DNA of 64,000 bases, taken from assembly GCA_029552745.1 (NCBI GenBank), contig JAKPDK010000152.1, positions 186,001 to 250,000 of the forward strand, given 5' to 3'. This document shows positions 43,348-57,363 of the stretch, one piece after another. The position numbers and the translations under genes were made by a program. How positions within the stretch are numbered: the first letter of the stretch is position 1; every line of letters begins with the position of its first letter. This stretch comes from Candidatus Hydrogenedentota bacterium (GTDB lineage Bacteria > Hydrogenedentota > Hydrogenedentia > Hydrogenedentales > SLHB01). The notes below the pieces were generated by a model. It did no database searches. It was not told where the DNA came from and saw nothing but the letters and a program-made list of their open reading frames with translations.

Positions 43348-44316
43348 ATGTTACGCGTAAAAACGGCGCGTCTTCTTCTGCCAGTTTTCGCTTTGGTGAT
43401 GGCAAATAGTTTTGTTTCCTCAGCGGATACTCCTACCATGTTGTTGCGCGTAGAACCAACTGAAGTCACCTTCCATAAGATGGAAAACGTCGGTGTGATT
43501 CGTGTGTTCTTGGGCGGAAAACCGGCCGCGAAGTCCCAGATCGAGTCTTTGTCGATTGAAGGATCCTATGGACGCATGTTTTTCATAGAACAGCCTGAGG
43601 GACAACTCGGGACAGTCCTTGTGAGAGCGAATCCTTCCCAGCTCGAAGTGGGCACATATAAACTTTTAATAAGAGCAGCCAAACAGCTGGCGGAAGTTAC
43701 CATTCATGCGCCGCTCGATACGCTGGAAAGCGTGATTGATATTGAATCCAAACTTCAGTCGTCGGACCCTACGGATGTAAAGCTGCAATATGGACTCGCT
43801 CAATATTTTGGACAGGAGAAGGTCGAGATAAGTTTACCGGAGAAAGCCTACGAAGGGTATGTCTTGAAGATTCCGCTCCCCAAACATGACGACCGCCTTT
43901 ATACGTGGTTTATCAACGATGAACCGGTATTAAGCGGCAAAGGAGAAAGCACGTTACGTTTGCCTTTGAAAGAAGAAGGGTATATTTCTATACGGGTTGA
44001 GATCAAAAAAGAGGGGATTCCGCCTGTATCCTGGCAAGGAAACCTATCAGTCCTATCGGAGCCCGAAATTAGGACGGATTGTATACTCGGAGAAACTGTG
44101 AGTTTGACGGCGCCGGATGGGTTTAAACAATATCAGTGGGAAATAGATGGGAAGTCGGTGGGACACGACAAAGTATACCGTTTTAAGCCATCGGAACTAG
44201 GTACAATCCGTGTGCAGTGCTATGCGTCGATTCCAACTCAAGAAGAGAGTGACTACGTTTTTCGGCGTATCACATGGATAGTAAATGTCACAGAGAAAGA
44301 AAAGGGCGCTTTCTAA
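43348..44316 (+). CDS. Secreted beta-rich protein, function unknown
   Basis: A 322-residue exported protein. The signal peptide is MLRVKTARLLLPVFALVMANSFVSSA with cleavage near residue 26. The mature part looks like two or three Ig-like or PKD-like beta-sandwich domains: repeated alternating hydrophobic strands, RVEPTEVTFHKMENVGVIRV, and the late QYQWEIDGKSVG, a strand pair typical of PKD/Ig domains. A very strong AAAGGAGG ribosome site sits seven bases before ATG 43348. It ends overlapping the convergent isochorismatase-like gene by 4 bp. No enzymatic motif is visible; a surface or binding role is likely. Confidence 0.75.
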   Translation: MLRVKTARLLLPVFALVMANSFVSSADTPTMLLRVEPTEVTFHKMENVGVIRVFLGGKPAAKSQIESLSIEGSYGRMFFIEQPEGQLGTVLVRANPSQLEVGTYKLLIRAAKQLAEVTIHAPLDTLESVIDIESKLQSSDPTDVKLQYGLAQYFGQEKVEISLPEKAYEGYVLKIPLPKHDDRLYTWFINDEPVLSGKGESTLRLPLKEEGYISIRVEIKKEGIPPVSWQGNLSVLSEPEIRTDCILGETVSLTAPDGFKQYQWEIDGKSVGHDKVYRFKPSELGTIRVQCYASIPTQEESDYVFRRITWIVNVTEKEKGAF

Positions 44317-45233
44317 CAGCACAAGGCATTCAGAAAATCCGGAACGTCGAACACAAATCCGTAAGATAAGGCGACACGCCAGAGCGCGATGCGTTTCGCC
44401 AATTCTTCCCGCGCTGTCTCTCGGTTTTCAATGGCTGTCGTGGCTTCCCGCAAAACCGAACATAAGAAACCATATCGCTGCATGTCAGCCATCCCTCCCG
44501 GAGACAATAGCAAACATCCATCTACAGTGAAACCACAATAGATAAGGTGGTTGATTCCGCGAGCTTTGCACTGTGCGAAAAGCTGCGCGCCGTTTTCTGC
44601 AATTCCCTCACCGTCTTGTGGCTTCGCTCCCTCAGGAAAATCCAAGTTTTGAAATCCCCGCAAGATATCGTCTTGATTGTGATCTCCGGGGAACACGTGG
44701 ACTTTGTGGAATTCTTCCAACCTCTCTTTGGTGACATCTGTTAGAATTGTGGTATCCAAATTGTTTGAAAGCGAAGCAGTTTGCTGGTAACCAGAATAAG
44801 ATTTGTAGTACTTGCCTTCGCTGACGACATGGAACAAGGAGACACCAGACGCACGCACCTTTGAAAAAAGAACAGGAAGTTCTTCCTCTACGATTTTTTG
44901 GGCGCGTTTTGCCCACGGAACCACCCGCCACCAGCCCGGATACTTCTCAAAAGTCCCCATTTCCCAAATGTGCATTGCTACGACGCCGACCCGGTTCAAA
45001 TCAAGCTCGATAGGTTCTTTGCGCCAACCTCCAAATCCTTCTTCCGGCACATCTCTTTGGAAGTCGGCGTCAAAGTGTTGGTAATACCACGCGGGGATGG
45101 GAACAACGCGGGGACGATAGGGAAGACTCTCGTGAAAATAGGAAGCTTCCGCTCTCAATTTGGACATCCCCAACATTGGGGCACCGAGTATTGAGGCAAT
45201 CCCTTGAATAGCCGTTCGCCGTTTGATACGCAT
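44313..45233 (-). CDS. Isochorismatase-like cysteine hydrolase with Tat-like signal
   Basis: A 306-residue protein of the isochorismatase fold. The catalytic Cys is in IYCGFTVDGCLLLSPGGMADM, which also has the G-x-x-T/S-x-x-C-V/L pattern. The position of the usual first Asp (normally LLVIDMQNDF-like) reads GVVAMHIWEMG, with Met-His in place of Asp. The N-terminus KRRTAIQGIASILGAP looks like a twin-arginine signal, so export is possible. ATG 45233 is used; the longer frame starts with TTG at 45239. The family includes nicotinamidases, carbamoylases and isochorismatases; the substitution makes ordinary activity uncertain. The extra ~80 N-terminal residues set it apart from core-size members. 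Confidence 0.78.
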   Translation of the reverse strand: MRIKRRTAIQGIASILGAPMLGMSKLRAEASYFHESLPYRPRVVPIPAWYYQHFDADFQRDVPEEGFGGWRKEPIELDLNRVGVVAMHIWEMGTFEKYPGWWRVVPWAKRAQKIVEEELPVLFSKVRASGVSLFHVVSEGKYYKSYSGYQQTASLSNNLDTTILTDVTKERLEEFHKVHVFPGDHNQDDILRGFQNLDFPEGAKPQDGEGIAENGAQLFAQCKARGINHLIYCGFTVDGCLLLSPGGMADMQRYGFLCSVLREATTAIENRETAREELAKRIALWRVALSYGFVFDVPDFLNALCC

Positions 45234-45313
45234 GGGCAAGATTTTCCGTAGTCTACAAAAAGAATACTACGTCAGAAGACGGACGGCAATTTTGTAATAA
45301 ATACCTTAAAGGT

Positions 45314-48300
45314 TCAACCTTTATGGTTGTCCGAATTTCGAGTAAACATTTCATATAGGATAGGAAAAACTACAAGGGTGAGAACCGCAGACACCAAGAT
45401 ACCACCAACAGAAGCGACTCCCACGGACGTTCGCATCTCACTTCCCAGACCTCGCCCAAAGGCGAGTGGCAACATACCGAGGATAGCCGCCAGCGTGATC
45501 ATAAGGATTGGACGGAACTGATCGATTGCGGCATGTTCCATCGCACGATGTCTCGAAACACCCGCACGTATCTGCTGATTGACCTCATCCATGATGAGAA
45601 TGGCATTATTGACGACAATTCCCACCAACATGACCGCCCCAAGAAGCACAAACATGGAGATACTCTCGCCCGCAAGATAGAGAGACCATAACACACCAAT
45701 TAATCCCAGCGGGACCGTGACGAGAATGAGAAACGGCTGTGTGAAAGACTCAAGTATCGCGGCCAATGTCAAATAGGTGAGCGCAATAGCTAATATGCCG
45801 GCTTCCAAGAATTCGCCTATAGCCTCTTGCATGATTTCGTATTGTCCGGCAAATCGGTAGGAATATCCTGGGGGTAATTGCGCTTTTTGATCTATGAGGC
45901 CACTAAGCTCTTTGACGGCATTTCCCAAAGGTTTTGTCGAAGCAAGGTTTGCGTAAACCTTCGTTATGCGCCGCTTGTCGTTGCGGGTAATCTGAATAGG
46001 CGCCGTTGTTTCGTGAACATTGGCGAGCGCCGTTAAATTAACGGGCGAATCTGGGGAACCGGGCAATAGAAAATCCGCAACCTGGTCTTTGCCAAATTCC
46101 TCAGCTAACTTAACTCGGATATCATAGGTTCGACCGCTTTGCTTGAATACACCCGCTTTCAAACCTTCCAGATTGGCTCGCAAGGTCATGCCCAACCCCA
46201 GCGCCGGGGCATTTAAATCAGAAAGGACTTCACGTTTCGGCTTGACGCGCAATTCCGGTTTGCCTGCCCGGACACTCGTATCGGGAGCGAGAAATCCCGG
46301 AATGTTGCGGGCATAGTCAGCGATTTTCAGAGCAAGTTGCTCCAATTCTTTGATTTCATCTCCAGCAATCTCAAGCTCCACTGCGTAACCTTGCCCACCA
46401 ACCACTTTGCTGACGTTAGCGGTTACAATGCTGTCGGTGTATCCTTTAAGTCGCTCGTTGACTTTTGCTAGGAGATCATCCATGGTGTCCGATCGTTCTG
46501 TCTTCTGGACGAATTTCAAAAGTATCTGTGCCAAATAGACTCCTTCCGAAGACTGGCCAATGATCCCCTCCACTTTTCCGATTGTAGTGAACATGTGCTC
46601 CAAGCCTTGCATGTCGCGCAGGGCATTTTCTGCTTCATGAACGCGGTCTATTGTGCGCTCAAGACTATAATAGGTGGGATACTCTAGACGTACAAAGATT
46701 TCTCCCCTGTCGGGATCACGAAAGAAACCAAAACCTATGCGAGGCACCAAGCTTAATGCATGAATTAAGAGAACAACCGTCACAACCAGAACAGCCGCCC
46801 CGATTGTGCGATGTTTTGCTACCGTATGCAAAACCAGCCCGTAACCCCCGGCAACTTTTTGCAGCGCCTGGTTGAATGCCGCCTCCACCTTCGCAAGCAT
46901 CCCTTTGCTCGTACCGCGTTTTAACAAAACAGCCGACATAATGGGGGTCAATGTGAAAGAGATAAACAGAGAAACCGCCGTGACAATAACCATGGTGATC
47001 GCAAAGGGTCTGAAGAAAAACCCGACCAGACTACCCATCATGGCTACTGGAAAGAGCACGACAATGTTCGTACCAGCGCTTGCAAGAACTGCGACGGCAA
47101 CTTCACCGGTGCCGGTACGAGCAGCCTCACGAGGTTCAACGCCCTCAGAGACCTTTCGAACAATACTCTCTAACACCACAATAGAATTTGTGACTAGAAT
47201 ACCCACAGACAAAGCCAAGGAAGTCAATACCGGCGTATTAAGGGTGTATCCAAGCAAATAAATAAAAAAGAGACTGATAACCACGCTTAACGGCATCGTC
47301 ACAGCAACAATCAAAGTAGAACGAAAATTGTAGAGGAAAAAGAACAAAATTGCGCCAGTGAGCAGAACCCCTTGAAAAATGTTGCTTGTGGCGCTATCGA
47401 CTGTTGATTGAATGAAAGCGCCGGCATCAGAAACCCACGTGAGGTCCATGCCCCCGGGAAGACTTTTCCGCAAGGAATCCAACGCCGCGCGGACATTATT
47501 GACTACTTGCACGGCATTCGCATCTGCCTTCTTAACAACTCGTATTGCAACACAAGGCTTACCATCTAAAAAGGCAGCCTGGCGTGATTCAGCCGATGCC
47601 ATACGTAACTCGCTGACATCGTGCAGGTAACACCGCGCCCCGTTACGATTCGCAATTTCAAGAGTCCCGAGATCCGAAACAGTAGCATAATCGGCGTCAA
47701 ACTTGACGGTATACTCTGTGCCCGATTCCTTCACATGCCCAGAAGGGATCGTGCGCACGTTATTTTGAATAGCCAAAACCACATCGTGCGCTGTGAGACC
47801 CCGCTGCCCGAGTTTTTCACGGTCGAGAAGCACTTGGACCTCCCGCTCCTGCCCTCCGATGAGCTGCACTTCAGCGACCCCCGGTAAAACAGAAATGCGA
47901 TCCCGCAAGGTGTTATCCGCGTAATCATACAATTCATCAAGGGGAACGTCCCCCGTCAAGGCCAGATTGATAATGGGTTGGGCGTTGATGTCAAATTTGA
48001 GAATTTTGGGCTTTTCAACATCTGCGGGAAGGTCATTTTGGATTAAATCGATTTTTTCCCGAACATCGGTGGCGGCGATGTCTACGTCGACGTTAAGATG
48101 AAACTCTAACAAGGTTTGGCAGACATTCTCCATGCATACGGATGAGACATGTTTGAGTCCGTCGATCGTGACAACGGCATCTTCAATACGTTTCGCTACA
48201 TCCGTTTCTAGTTCGTCTGGAGACGCGCCCGGATATACCGTAACCACGGTAATGAAGGGCATGTCCACTTTGGGCATCAGTTCAAGCCCTAGCTTACGAT

Positions 48301-48385
48301 AGGCATTAATCCCAAGTCCTGTCAGTGCTATGATAAGACACACCATAGCCACCGGACGCCGAATAGAAACGTTCGACAAAAACAT
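45314..48385 (-). CDS. RND-family efflux permease (HAE1 type)
   Basis: A 1023-residue inner-membrane transporter with the duplicated RND layout: helix 1 (VAMVCLIIALTGLG), a large periplasmic loop starting PGASPDELETDVAKRIEDAV, a six-helix bundle, a second loop, and a second bundle. It should form a tripartite drug or metabolite pump with the adjacent adaptor and an outer-membrane channel encoded elsewhere. In helix 4 the sequence reads VGILVTNSIVVLES: Thr399-Asn400 occupy the positions of the usual Asp pair or single Asp. In helix 10 VGIVVNNAILIMDE has Asn where AcrB has Lys. Its start codon overlaps the adaptor's stop by one base (TAATG). Confidence 0.94.
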   Translation of the reverse strand: MFLSNVSIRRPVAMVCLIIALTGLGINAYRKLGLELMPKVDMPFITVVTVYPGASPDELETDVAKRIEDAVVTIDGLKHVSSVCMENVCQTLLEFHLNVDVDIAATDVREKIDLIQNDLPADVEKPKILKFDINAQPIINLALTGDVPLDELYDYADNTLRDRISVLPGVAEVQLIGGQEREVQVLLDREKLGQRGLTAHDVVLAIQNNVRTIPSGHVKESGTEYTVKFDADYATVSDLGTLEIANRNGARCYLHDVSELRMASAESRQAAFLDGKPCVAIRVVKKADANAVQVVNNVRAALDSLRKSLPGGMDLTWVSDAGAFIQSTVDSATSNIFQGVLLTGAILFFFLYNFRSTLIVAVTMPLSVVISLFFIYLLGYTLNTPVLTSLALSVGILVTNSIVVLESIVRKVSEGVEPREAARTGTGEVAVAVLASAGTNIVVLFPVAMMGSLVGFFFRPFAITMVIVTAVSLFISFTLTPIMSAVLLKRGTSKGMLAKVEAAFNQALQKVAGGYGLVLHTVAKHRTIGAAVLVVTVVLLIHALSLVPRIGFGFFRDPDRGEIFVRLEYPTYYSLERTIDRVHEAENALRDMQGLEHMFTTIGKVEGIIGQSSEGVYLAQILLKFVQKTERSDTMDDLLAKVNERLKGYTDSIVTANVSKVVGGQGYAVELEIAGDEIKELEQLALKIADYARNIPGFLAPDTSVRAGKPELRVKPKREVLSDLNAPALGLGMTLRANLEGLKAGVFKQSGRTYDIRVKLAEEFGKDQVADFLLPGSPDSPVNLTALANVHETTAPIQITRNDKRRITKVYANLASTKPLGNAVKELSGLIDQKAQLPPGYSYRFAGQYEIMQEAIGEFLEAGILAIALTYLTLAAILESFTQPFLILVTVPLGLIGVLWSLYLAGESISMFVLLGAVMLVGIVVNNAILIMDEVNQQIRAGVSRHRAMEHAAIDQFRPILMITLAAILGMLPLAFGRGLGSEMRTSVGVASVGGILVSAVLTLVVFPILYEMFTRNSDNHKG

Positions 48386-49599
48386 TAGGCTGCGTTCTCC
48401 TGAATCGTCACAGGGGTACCGTCGTCAAGCAAGAATTGTCCCATAACTACAAGGGGCATACCCTCTGAAACTTGGTCTCCAAGAATCTCGACCCACCCGT
48501 CTGTCTCTAACCCTTTCTCAATGGTCAGTTTCCTGGCAACATTGTTTTCAACTGTGAACACGACAAAGCGACCTGCGCGGGTCTGAATTGCCTTCGCAGG
48601 TATTCCAAGTCCCTCGTGCTGTTCAAGAACGATCGTAGATTGAGCAATGGCACCCGGAACAACCGTTGGTGGTGGGTTTGTAAGAACCGTTTTAACCTCG
48701 AAAGTCCTCAGGCGCGGATCAATCACGGGACTCTTATACGATATGACTTGTTCTCCCAAATCGGTGTGATAGACTTGCAACTTGATTTTTGTTTCACCTG
48801 GCGTGACGAGATCGTAATATTCCGCTGGCAAAAGGGCGGATATCTCTACGACCGAGGGATCATCTATCCGCAACACGGGTTTCCCCAATTCTCCCATCTC
48901 GCCTTCTTCCACAATAATACGACTAACCTTACCGCTGATTGGGGCGTATACTGTACAATCCCGCAGATCTTTCTCAGCGATCGCCAACGCCGCTTTTGCC
49001 TGGGTCTCCAGTTCCGCGCCGCTTTGTAACGCAGTTTCCGCTTGCTTCACAACCGCAGTCAACTGCTTAAACCGAGACTCTTGTTGTTCTAACGCATCCT
49101 CAGACACCGCGCCCTTAGCACGAAGTTTTCGAAAACGTTCCACATCTGCCTTGGCTTTTTCATAGTCTGCTCGCACTCGCTCCAAATTCGCCTCCTGCTC
49201 TCTGCGAGTACAACCGGCCAACACGAATTCCTGTTTCCGAATCTGGACAAGCTTCTCGAACTTCAAAGGGTCAGATTCAAAAAGTTTGGTTTCTCCGGCG
49301 ACAACAGTATCTCCTTCGTCAACATAGAGCTTCTTAATCGTACCGCCTACTAGAGCAGGGACGGCTACATAGTCCTTGGCTTTGACATTTGCTTGAACCA
49401 CAACCCGGTTTTCGAACTGACGTTTTTGAACAGGCTCTAAAACTACTGGAATAGATGACACTGCGGACTCAGGCGGTTGAGACGCGTTCGTCTTTCCGGT
49501 AAGTCCTTTGCCCACAAAACCGAATATAGAAAACACCAAGAGAAACCCAAAGAACCAAAATAACTTAGACTTAGCAAAAGCAAAGCGAAACCTCGGCAT
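48385..49599 (-). CDS. RND periplasmic adaptor (membrane fusion protein)
   Basis: A 404-residue HlyD/AcrA-type adaptor. An N-terminal anchor helix (LFWFFGFLLVFSIFGFVG) precedes the lipoyl half-motifs (VVQANVKAKDYVAVPALVGGTIKKLYVDEGDTV and RDCTVYAPISGKVSRI), with a long alpha-helical hairpin between them (about 120-210, RVRADYEKAKADVERFRKLR). Beta-barrel and membrane-proximal domains follow. GAGAGGAG lies about nine bases before the ATG. It lies between the tetR-type regulator (39-bp gap) and the permease (1-base overlap), in the same orientation, forming a typical three-gene pump operon. Confidence 0.93.
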   Translation of the reverse strand: MPRFRFAFAKSKLFWFFGFLLVFSIFGFVGKGLTGKTNASQPPESAVSSIPVVLEPVQKRQFENRVVVQANVKAKDYVAVPALVGGTIKKLYVDEGDTVVAGETKLFESDPLKFEKLVQIRKQEFVLAGCTRREQEANLERVRADYEKAKADVERFRKLRAKGAVSEDALEQQESRFKQLTAVVKQAETALQSGAELETQAKAALAIAEKDLRDCTVYAPISGKVSRIIVEEGEMGELGKPVLRIDDPSVVEISALLPAEYYDLVTPGETKIKLQVYHTDLGEQVISYKSPVIDPRLRTFEVKTVLTNPPPTVVPGAIAQSTIVLEQHEGLGIPAKAIQTRAGRFVVFTVENNVARKLTIEKGLETDGWVEILGDQVSEGMPLVVMGQFLLDDGTPVTIQENAA

Positions 49600-49638: not shown

Positions 49639-50271
49639 TCATCGCAAATCAAGAGACGCCAGCAACGCATTCGAAACAAAATCTGAAACAGAATCAAGGA
49701 ATTCTCTGGAGTAGTCTTGTCGCCCAAGCAACATGAGAATTGGTGCGCGAGCAAAAACATAAATGGCAACCGCGCCAAACAACAAGAATCCCCATAGATG
49801 CGCAGTTGCCTCGTCCATCTCTGGCTTAATATGCCTCACAATTTGAGTGATGGCATCGTGTTCCGGTTTGAAAACGTTTTGGACTACCTCGGCAAGGCTA
49901 GGACTAGGATCAAGCAAACTGCGCAACATAAGCGGCCAAAACCAGCTGGGGGTATTTTCCGCAAAAATCACACGGAACTTTTCCGCAACAATCCCACGTA
50001 TCGCCTCTATCTGCCCTTCACGCGTCTGCAGGCGTGTTTCATCCTTCCAAAAACGTACCGCCGGATAGGTCTCTCCGTACCTCGCGACATACAGCAATGT
50101 CTCTTTATAAAGATTCTCTTTGCTACCAAAATGATAATTGACTGCGGCAATATTGGAGCTTGCTTTTTCAGCAATGGCGCGAACGCTGGTGCCCTCTAGT
50201 CCATGCTGGGCAAACAATTCACCAGCCGCTTGAATAAGAGCCGTTTTTGTATCTAATTCGTGTGTATTCAT
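49639..50271 (-). CDS. TetR-family repressor (CecR-like)
   Basis: A 210-residue regulator. The N-terminal HTH is clear: IQAAGELFAQHGLEGTSVRAIAEKASSNIAAVNYHFGSKENLY. The C-terminal half resembles the CecR/DUF1956 ligand domain (FWPLMLRSLLDPSPSLAEVV and the following helix), a group that controls efflux pumps and responds to toxic small molecules. ATG 50271 is chosen; the longer frame begins with TTG at 50298. The ribosome site is not obvious. It is the first gene of the operon with the adaptor and RND permease and lies just downstream of a 26-bp palindrome that covers its own -35 box, so autorepression of the pump is very likely. Confidence 0.93.
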   Translation of the reverse strand: MNTHELDTKTALIQAAGELFAQHGLEGTSVRAIAEKASSNIAAVNYHFGSKENLYKETLLYVARYGETYPAVRFWKDETRLQTREGQIEAIRGIVAEKFRVIFAENTPSWFWPLMLRSLLDPSPSLAEVVQNVFKPEHDAITQIVRHIKPEMDEATAHLWGFLLFGAVAIYVFARAPILMLLGRQDYSREFLDSVSDFVSNALLASLDLR

Positions 50272-50281
50272 TCTAGAAATA

Positions 50282-50311
50282 AGTATAGCACAAACCAAAC
50301 GTCCGTTTCAA
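50282..50311 (-). promoter_or_regulatory. Promoter of the tetR-adaptor-RND operon
   Basis: On the minus strand TTGAAA (50311-50306), an 18-bp spacer and TATACT (50287-50282) form a good sigma-70 promoter eleven bases before ATG 50271. The -35 box lies inside the palindrome at 50305-50330. Confidence 0.65.
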
Positions 50312-50330
50312 ACAAATGTTTGTTTGAAAC
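50305..50330. promoter_or_regulatory. TetR operator, 26-bp palindrome
   Basis: Twelve-base perfect arms: GTTTCAAACAAA (50305-50316) and TTTGTTTGAAAC (50319-50330) around a two-base TG centre. Size and symmetry fit a TetR-family dimer-pair site. It overlaps the -35 box of the repressor's own promoter, so binding would block RNA polymerase. It is 154 bp from tyrS on the other side and probably does not control it. Confidence 0.82.
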
Positions 50331-50419: not shown

Positions 50420-50435
50420 CTATACGCTCGTATAG
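50420..50435. other. Short palindrome upstream of tyrS
   Basis: CTATACG (50420-50426) and CGTATAG (50429-50435) flank a CT centre, 50 bp before the tyrS start. It includes TATAG, usable as a -10, but no -35 at a suitable distance is seen. Confidence 0.35.
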
Positions 50436-50484: not shown

Positions 50485-51756
50485 ATGAAACTTTTTGAAG
50501 AACTTGTCTGGCGTGGATTTGTGAATCAGACAACCCATCCTGAAATTGGCGAAATCATTGACAAAAGCCCATTGACACTTTATTGCGGTTTCGATCCCAC
50601 TGCAGATAGTTTTCATGTGGGGCAGTTGGTTCCGCTCATGGCGCTGCGACATTTTCAACGTGCCGGACATGCCTGTATCGCCCTAATAGGCGGAGCGACA
50701 GGCATGATTGGTGACCCGAGCGGTAAGAAGGAGGAGCGACAACTTCTTTCCAAGGACCAAATAGAACGTAACCTGGAAGGTCAAAGAAGACAAATTGAAC
50801 GTTTTTTGAACTTCCCTGAGGGTATTGGTCCCAAGTTGGTCAATAATGCCGATTGGCTTTGTCATTACAAACTAATTGATTTTTTGAGGGACATAGGCAA
50901 ACATTTCTCGGTAAATGCACTAATTGCTCGGGAATCTGTCCGGAGACGTTTGGAAGACCGGGAACATGGTATTTCCTACACGGAGTTCTCGTACAACCTT
51001 TTACAAGCCTACGATTTTTTATATTTATACGAAAACTATGGTTGTACCCTGCAAGTTGGCGGCAGCGACCAATGGGGGAATATTGTCGCCGGTATTGACC
51101 TGATACGGCGCATACATGATGCTGACGCCTATGGGTTGACTTTCCCGTTACTGACAAAATCCGACGGCAGTAAGTTTGGTAAAAGTGAATCGGGCAATAT
51201 CTGGTTGGATGCGCGCTACACGTCACCGTATAAATTTTATCAGTTTTTTATAAACCAGGCAGATGCGGATATGCCTCGACTTCTCCGTTTGCTCACTGAA
51301 TTACCCAAAGAGGAAATCTCCGTTCTTGAGGAAAGTGTTCGGGAGACGCCGGAGCAACGTGCCGCACAAAGGCGGCTCGCGTTTGAACTCACTTCCCTGG
51401 TACACGGCAAAACAGAAGCGCTCGAGGCCGAACGCGCATCGCAGGCAATGTTCGGAGGTGACCTGGCTGGCCTGTCCGAAAAAGTATTAGAAGAGGTCTT
51501 CAGTGAGGTCCCATCGGCTTCCTTCCCCAAGGCTTACTTGGACGGACAACGGCTTTTGGCTGATCTATTAGTGGAAGCCCGTGTATTTTCTAGCAAAGGG
51601 GAATTCCGCCGAATGGTTCAAAGTGGGGGATTGTACATAAACAATGTCCGGCTTCAGAATACCGACATTCGAGTAACTCCGGAATGGCTATGTCATGAAA
51701 AGTTAATGGTAATACGAGTTGGGAAAAAACAATACTATTTGCTTCGCTTTGAATAA
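50485..51756 (+). CDS. tyrS: Tyrosyl-tRNA synthetase
   Basis: A 423-residue class I aminoacyl-tRNA synthetase that charges tRNA(Tyr). The HIGH motif appears as FHVG (43-46), the KMSKS loop as KFGKS (230-234), with tyrosine-recognition residues in LTLYCGFDPTADS and the YNLLQAYDFLYLY and QVGGSDQWGNI segments. A C-terminal S4 RNA-binding domain (about 355-423, DLLVEARVFSSKGEFRRMVQSGGLYINN) is present. GGGGAGAG lies upstream of the ATG. Essential housekeeping gene. It lies 37 bp before rfbF, probably coincidental readthrough rather than a functional link. Confidence 0.97.
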   Translation: MKLFEELVWRGFVNQTTHPEIGEIIDKSPLTLYCGFDPTADSFHVGQLVPLMALRHFQRAGHACIALIGGATGMIGDPSGKKEERQLLSKDQIERNLEGQRRQIERFLNFPEGIGPKLVNNADWLCHYKLIDFLRDIGKHFSVNALIARESVRRRLEDREHGISYTEFSYNLLQAYDFLYLYENYGCTLQVGGSDQWGNIVAGIDLIRRIHDADAYGLTFPLLTKSDGSKFGKSESGNIWLDARYTSPYKFYQFFINQADADMPRLLRLLTELPKEEISVLEESVRETPEQRAAQRRLAFELTSLVHGKTEALEAERASQAMFGGDLAGLSEKVLEEVFSEVPSASFPKAYLDGQRLLADLLVEARVFSSKGEFRRMVQSGGLYINNVRLQNTDIRVTPEWLCHEKLMVIRVGKKQYYLLRFE

Positions 51757-56256: not shown

Positions 56257-57363
56257 TTACTCTTCTTGTGCCACAACAGTCTCCGCAATGCGCCGAAGCT
56301 GGTTTTGTCTTTCCAAATTGGATGGTAATGGTTCCAAATTTGCGAGACGAAGGATTTCATTCCATCGATACACCCAGTCATGTCGCAGTAGGGAATTTAC
56401 GACGTTATTTCGCCGCGCTTCTGCAATCCGTTCGGGCTGGCAATCCAAAGACTTCAGCGTATTCAGAATCTCTTTGGAATCATAAGGGACAGGGAAAAAA
56501 GCATCCGGCCAGTTAAAAAGCTTGGAAAATTCGGGGATTTCAGGTGGGTCGCCAACAAGAATCGCGCCGCCTGCCGCTCCTTCAAAAAACCGAAAACCCA
56601 CCTCGTGTTGGTTTTCGGTTTGTTCCGGACTGTCAATTTTCGCCCGATTAGCTATAAAGTATCGCGTCCTTTTGATCCACTCTGCCAGAAGAAATCGGTG
56701 CTGACGATAGTCGTATGCCGCCTCAGGCTTGACGGTGTCAAATAAATAAAAAATCTCGCCTTTTAAGGCTGCTTCGTAGAGCACATCGTGGGCAATCGAA
56801 GACCTTCTTCCCATGTAGTAGACGTCAATGCACCGCTGAGGAGAATTAGGATAAGGGCAGAAACTTAAAGCATCAACTGCCGGCGGGAGATACCAGCACG
56901 TAACTCCCAGTAGATGTTTCAAGGGTTCAACCGTTTGGCTACAATTAAGCACCACATGATCAAACCATTTGAGAGGTCCACAAAACTTGTGCCACTTGAG
57001 AGAACTTTTCCAAAGTTCCTCCACCCAACATATGGCGGTGCGGCACTTATCGCGCCAATTGGGTATATAACGAAGAAACTCTAAATCGGTAGGGTCTTGC
57101 ACCATGACAAAGAGCAGATCATAAGAAGAAGTGAGTTTCTGAGCGGTCACAATAGGAGTAGGGGTCATCGTAATATGCATTTTCCTACTGACATGATGGA
57201 ACACGCGCGAAAACAACGTCACACCGTGACGGTGAGGAGTCGTTTCAGGAACCACAATGTCGGCGGAATCCAACTCTTTGATAAGATCTTCAAATTCGTA
57301 GACACAACAGCGCGACAGTTCCCTGCGAAAACTTCTTTGAGATAAAACACAAACCCTTGACAT
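56257..57363 (-). CDS. CgeB-like family glycosyltransferase
   Basis: A 368-residue protein likely to transfer a sugar to a surface glycan. The C-terminal half carries the family pattern QHEVGFRFFEGAAGGAILVGD and PFPVPY-like contacts with the conserved Glu in FEGAAGG; the N-terminal half has DLLFVMVQDPTDLEFLRYIP and an invariant-looking HDVLYEAALKG. Start 57363 (MSRVCVLSQ) has GACGGAA upstream; the longer frame from 57402 is possible. It faces the DUF4910 gene convergently (15-bp gap) and its upstream region contains a 9-bp inverted repeat. Donor and acceptor sugars cannot be identified. Confidence 0.78.
   Translation of the reverse strand: MSRVCVLSQRSFRRELSRCCVYEFEDLIKELDSADIVVPETTPHRHGVTLFSRVFHHVSRKMHITMTPTPIVTAQKLTSSYDLLFVMVQDPTDLEFLRYIPNWRDKCRTAICWVEELWKSSLKWHKFCGPLKWFDHVVLNCSQTVEPLKHLLGVTCWYLPPAVDALSFCPYPNSPQRCIDVYYMGRRSSIAHDVLYEAALKGEIFYLFDTVKPEAAYDYRQHRFLLAEWIKRTRYFIANRAKIDSPEQTENQHEVGFRFFEGAAGGAILVGDPPEIPEFSKLFNWPDAFFPVPYDSKEILNTLKSLDCQPERIAEARRNNVVNSLLRHDWVYRWNEILRLANLEPLPSNLERQNQLRRIAETVVAQEE

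Follow-up and report, generated by a model that had tools for sequence, protein, structure and literature searches.

A predicted 27-bp double operator over the promoter of a tetR-hlyD-RND efflux operon in Candidatus Hydrogenedentota

The window analysed here, viz. the whole stretch of 64,000 nucleotides from a Candidatus Hydrogenedentota genome, carries on its minus strand a gene for a TetR-family repressor followed by the genes for an HlyD-type periplasmic adaptor and an RND permease, and a divergent tyrS gene lies across a 213-bp intergenic region (Table 1). The gap between tetR and the adaptor gene is 39 bp, the adaptor and permease genes overlap by 1 bp, and the three genes have the layout of a TetR-RND pump operon, as they share one strand and one promoter that is overlapped by the predicted operator. 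The same gene order on one strand is found in 17 of the 20 relatives that were fetched with flanking DNA, and in the other three (L137, L149 and L154) the contig or the fetched stretch ends 0.2 to 1.9 kb past tetR. In 8 of these 17 relatives about 1.4 to 1.6 kb separate tetR from the adaptor gene, and the one gap of this kind that was tested (L138:2730-4172) contains a gene for an outer-membrane efflux protein (PF02321), a gene that is absent from the operon in the window. An ORF of 308 aa on the same strand (44313-45239), which starts about 75 bp past the permease gene and showed no Pfam match at 0.001, could be co-transcribed with the pump operon.

Table 1. Genes and predicted regulatory features at the tetR-hlyD-RND locus (positions within the window).
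Feature	Position	Strand	Evidence
RND permease gene (ACR_tran)	45314..48385	-	Domain match
RND periplasmic adaptor (HlyD-type) gene	48385..49599	-	RND_mfp above cut-off
tetR, TetR-family repressor, 210 aa, TetR_N + CecR_C	49639..50271	-	ORF, domain and profile matches
-10-like TATACT	50282..50287	-	Promoter scan; TATAMT follows the frame in relatives
Conserved 27-bp double operator (predicted), CAAACATTTGTTTGAAACGGACGTTTG on the minus strand	50296..50322	-	Phylum frame CAAAYRYTTG-N7-CAAAYRTTTG
Box 2 (proximal), GAAACGGACGTTTG	50296..50309	-	Exact match to published PsrA consensus
-35-like TTGAAA of the tetR promoter, at the box 1/box 2 junction	50306..50311	-	Promoter scan; TTGA at or near this place in relatives
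26-bp palindrome, arms of 12, centre TG	50305..50330		Sequence inspection, copy count, shuffles
Box 1 (distal), CAAACATTTGTTTG	50309..50322	-	Exact match to published PsrA consensus
tyrS, divergent neighbour, probably outside the circuit	50485..51756	+	ORF, domain and profile matches

The TetR protein combines a sensor domain of the CecR type with a PsrA-like recognition helix. Its TetR_N (51.2 bits) and CecR_C (54.3 bits) matches both exceed the Pfam cut-off of 24, which makes it a TetR regulator of the CecR_C type, whereas its scores against the NCBIfam equivalogs for CecR (65.2 bits, cut-off 365) and for PsrA of Vibrio (67.1 bits, cut-off 300) place it outside CecR proper and PsrA proper. 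The helix region of the window protein, SNIAAVNYHFGSK, is close to that of PDB chain 2fbq, which we take to be P. aeruginosa PsrA. One TetR of this kind is present in the genome at E 1e-10 or better, its best three named relatives are all from Candidatus Hydrogenedentota MAGs, and in a search of the phylum at 1e-20, 28 of 68 genomes were found to have relatives.

The sequence-only reading had described a self-repressing operator consisting of a perfect 26-bp palindrome over the -35 box of this operon, within an interval (50282-50330) that corresponds to the -10 box plus the palindrome. The palindrome itself, GTTTCAAACAAA-TG-TTTGTTTGAAAC, is present as described, with complementarity at 12 of 12 arm positions, and the TTGAAA hexamer does lie in the arm nearer to tetR. 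Together with an 18-bp spacer and TATACT, this hexamer forms a predicted minus-strand promoter agreeing with the consensus at 10 of 12 positions; the promoter scan is by itself weak, since 2 promoter-like sites were found and 2.5 are expected in shuffles. Only 10 bp lie between the -10 box and the ATG of tetR (50269-50287), due to which the tetR message would be nearly leaderless; in most of the relatives compared this distance ranges from 32 to 101 (starts approximate), and in L031 it is 0. The palindrome is not expected by chance: the window has a single copy when up to 3 mismatches are allowed, with 0 expected; 20 shuffled windows contained on average 0.1 perfect repeats with arms of at least 12 and a loop of up to 8; and when the 213-bp intergenic stretch was shuffled 20,000 times, arms of 12 with a loop of up to 2 arose once. 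Two other inverted repeats were observed in the window. One of these, CTATACG-CT-CGTATAG (50420-50435), is situated nearer to tyrS and might be bound by a different regulator or belong to the control region of tyrS, and the other (AAACCGAAAACC, 56587-56621, loop 11) is the window's only other 12-base perfect inverted repeat at a loop of up to 20.

A comparison with relatives indicates, however, that the conserved unit does not coincide with the 26-bp palindrome. In promoters of the relatives from one phylum (Hydrogenedentota-like), the upstream regions show recurrent CAAAC/GTTTG elements, and the pattern CAAAYRYTTG-N7-CAAAYRTTTG is commonly found just before the -10 box. When 30 promoters were aligned on their best -35/-10 pair, most of them had an element with the -35 TTGA at its end and another element within the spacer. 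For the two 10-bp cores in the phylum set the best spacing is 17 bp centre to centre, with a mean score of 17.63 out of 20 as against 12.47 to 15.57 elsewhere. When the window was excluded, a score of at least 15 out of 20 was reached by 27 of 29 relatives and one of at least 18 by 21 of 29, whereas the coding control gave 0 of 29 at either threshold and the shuffles gave means of 0.53 and 0.0, respectively. As the pattern was derived from the very promoters that were scored, these scores measure the strength of the pattern and are no independent prediction; the only locus truly held out, G025:C171, which was not used in drawing the pattern, is a true match.

The window matches this 27-bp frame with 2 mismatches, and its double site can also be described as two [G/C]AAAC-N4-GTTT[G/C] boxes with one base in common. 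These are the only two matches to the PsrA consensus in the 64-kb window, and the two boxes arose together in 0 of 20,000 shuffles of the intergenic stretch. Two adjacent exact matches to the PsrA-type operator, [G/C]AAAC(N2-4)GTTT[G/C], are present in the regulator's own promoter. At 84 other loci a 13-bp tandem of 14-bp boxes fits better than the 17-bp pair (mean z of 2.96 vs 1.45), and in the window the same 27-bp frame scores 18 of 20 as the 17-bp pair and 19 of 19 as the 13-bp tandem. Both registers thus fit the window sequence, leaving more than one possible placement of the predicted dimers. The -35 box and roughly half of the -35/-10 spacer fall within the 27-bp site. The gap between the frame and the -10 box is 8 bp in the window as compared with 3 in most relatives, so that the operator lies 5 bp farther from the -10 box, and the promoter spacer of 18 likewise counts as a difference of the window from its phylum.

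Based on this comparison, the part of the earlier claim that holds is that the operator would serve the adjacent TetR over the -35 box of the tetR-hlyD-RND operon, and the part that does not is its exact extent, as the unit conserved in relatives reaches 9 bp farther toward tetR and ends 8 bp short of the distal end of the palindrome. The distal 8 bp of the palindrome (50323-50330) fall outside the conserved frame, and the segment 50296-50304 was missed, box 2 being absent from the sequence-only reading. The palindrome is very probably a part of the repressor's own predicted operator whose edges were wrongly drawn, and its perfect 12-bp symmetry appears to be partly a product of the repeated CAAA/TTTG units. 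It would be possible to hold that the operator is exactly the palindrome, centred at 50317.5, with both 12-base arms contacted (e.g. by two overlapping dimers); its perfect symmetry, reached in 1 of 20,000 shuffles, and the fact that the distal core of 10 bp in the phylum frame (CAAAC/ATTTG) has the same centre are in accordance with this. However, we regard this as improbable, since the palindrome is in no relative's promoter among the loci listed, the conserved frame does not extend to its outer 8 bp, and it leaves out a proximal box that is conserved. Similarly, although the terminator scan lists the palindrome as a stem-loop and its sequence is composed of CAAA/TTTG units, it is very improbable that it is a hairpin or terminator, a repeat element or a run of such units that arose by chance: the flanking genes are both transcribed away from it, no T tract follows it, the 4.36-Mb genome has it at a single place (unique at up to 3 mismatches), and the double site is found again in front of homologous tetR genes. 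The locus also illustrates that a conserved binding unit need not coincide with the longest perfect palindrome of its promoter.

The double site is found mostly before tetR genes of this kind. In the 68 genomes, CAAAYRYTTG-N7-CAAAYRTTTG at up to 2 mismatches gave 31 and 30 matches on the two strands, vs 4 and 3 for the backwards control. By hand count there are 33 places, of which 23 are within 150 bp before a tetR gene, one is 461 bp before it (G008) and nine are elsewhere, where the tetR set comprises the 31 relatives from the phylum search, inclusive of that in the window; for 8 of these 31, the 150 bp before the gene contain no match with 2 or fewer mismatches. The pattern in G008 (L140:780-806) is separate from a weaker element nearer to the gene. 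A further possibility is that the site acts in addition, or even chiefly, on the divergent tyrS, with which it shares the 213-bp intergenic region. However, no plus-strand promoter-like site was found nearby, the tyrS start is about 155 bp from the site, and in relatives the site accompanies tetR with no tyrS match seen adjoining it (often with little upstream DNA), making such a role very improbable.

The scan of the genome for a regulon proposed earlier was carried out and gave no second 26-mer at up to 3 mismatches and no second tandem double site at 2 mismatches (the backwards control gave one match). Due to the lack of a second tandem site, this looks like local autorepression rather than a wide regulon, and the regulon appears to be one operon. 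No clear excess over control is seen in the genome for CAAACANNTGTTTG at up to 1 mismatch (24 places vs 19) or for the single PsrA box (41 places vs 31). The other exact match to CAAACANNTGTTTG (L122) was taken as chance because of an apparent long coding stretch there (read by eye), and for two further genomic copies of the proximal box (L195 and L196) both stretches are covered by listed ORFs.

From the promoter-like boxes, the encoded domains, the gene order and the double site, we infer that 50296-50322 is the autoregulatory operator of the tetR-hlyD-RND efflux operon (probability of about 0.86), at which bound repressor would block the polymerase until a ligand frees it, so that repressor and pump would rise together. 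According to this model, a TetR/CecR_C dimer, probably two, would occupy the 27-bp double site, and by covering the -35 box and part of the spacer it would block RNA polymerase. A ligand, which may be a substrate of the pump or resemble a lipid, would then enter the C-terminal domain and cause the repressor to leave the DNA, upon which repressor, adaptor and permease would be made together, presumably from a common message. The location of the predicted operator over the -35 box of this operon would thus mean that the repressor represses its own gene and that pump and repressor are controlled jointly. A broader proposal, to which we give even odds, is that Hydrogenedentota-type bacteria have a single-target repressor of an RND pump, with a CecR-type sensor and a PsrA-like helix, that would act at a fixed 27-bp double operator set into the promoter, where the right arm of box 1 forms the -35 box and box 2 makes up the spacer between it and the -10 box. 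In the window the -35 box would have slipped by about 4 bp with both boxes kept, so that its operator could be read equally as a tandem of two PsrA boxes, in front of a nearly leaderless tetR message. For a pump repressor of a phylum that has received little study, the analysis provides a precise predicted DNA target, corrected in its location.

Among known systems, the window TetR resembles E. coli CecR (YbiH) in its CecR_C domain and in that the repressor gene is followed by genes for an HlyD-type adaptor and a transporter (cecR-ybhGFSR). However, the E. coli transporter is an ABC exporter rather than an RND pump, the helix there is NIAAITYYF, and the palindrome before cecR, CTTAATCAATCATTTGATTAAG, is not of the CAAAC type. 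In E. coli K-12 (L120:6600-6900) this CAATC-type palindrome lies just before cecR. Helix residue 45, read from the helix sequences, is N in nearly all proteins whose promoters scored as CAAAC, whereas four proteins that have sites of the CAATC type (L004, L012, L037 and L120) carry S, A or T there; a CAATC score was also obtained, however, for five proteins with N and one with H, and 32 of 115 gave ties or none, so that this residue may track the site type as a lead only. No match was found in the literature for DUF1956 TetR regulators, and for Hydrogenedentota TetR no title about such an operator was among the matches listed (best 10 of 51). The AcrR-type repressors of RND pumps differ from the window TetR in their layout, as in the window the pump operon begins with the repressor gene, and also in that the sensor domain here is CecR_C. 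The likeness to them is that of a predicted local TetR-family repressor of a pump with a palindrome over the promoter, in line with a general statement in PMC6790063.

The closest parallels for the predicted operator are PsrA of Pseudomonas and its likely Xanthomonadales orthologues Smlt2053/Xac2014, whose recognition helix, NIAAVNYHFGSK, is nearly identical to that in the window. According to PMC13104628, PsrA binds [G/C]AAAC(N2-4)GTTT[G/C], which both window boxes match, and its footprint at P. putida rpoS is at TTCAAACN4GTTTGAA. As described in PMC10304680, Smlt2053 of Stenotrophomonas binds its own promoter, which has two such repeats, represses its operon and gives an extra complex at higher protein; by analogy with its two complexes, the two boxes in the window suggest two dimers. 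The relatives of Smlt2053 have the DNA-binding helix of the window protein in common, the Xanthomonadales loci mostly match the window TetR over the DNA-binding part only, and most of them have CAAAC-N4-GTTTG or a near match close upstream of the gene. An exact PsrA box is present before the gene in 4 of 29 cases for close relatives (0.18 in shuffles), in 1 of 8 for weak ones (0.00) and in 44 of 76 for the other loci (0.28), based on 117 homologue loci minus 4 duplicates (last 80 upstream bases), i.e. 113, with the shuffles and the coding control likewise covering 113. Hence, an exact box is not the rule among close relatives, and the window is unusual among these in having two. PsrA and Smlt2053 are sensors of long-chain fatty acids, and the operon headed by Smlt2053 is one for beta-oxidation (PMC10304680), whereas the window protein has a CecR_C domain and heads an RND pump operon. 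Autorepressed TetR-pump operons being already known, the finding is ordinary in kind, with the predicted operator here being double and corrected in its position, and it provides a link between two known types of regulators, viz. a CecR-like sensor predicted to read a PsrA-like box.
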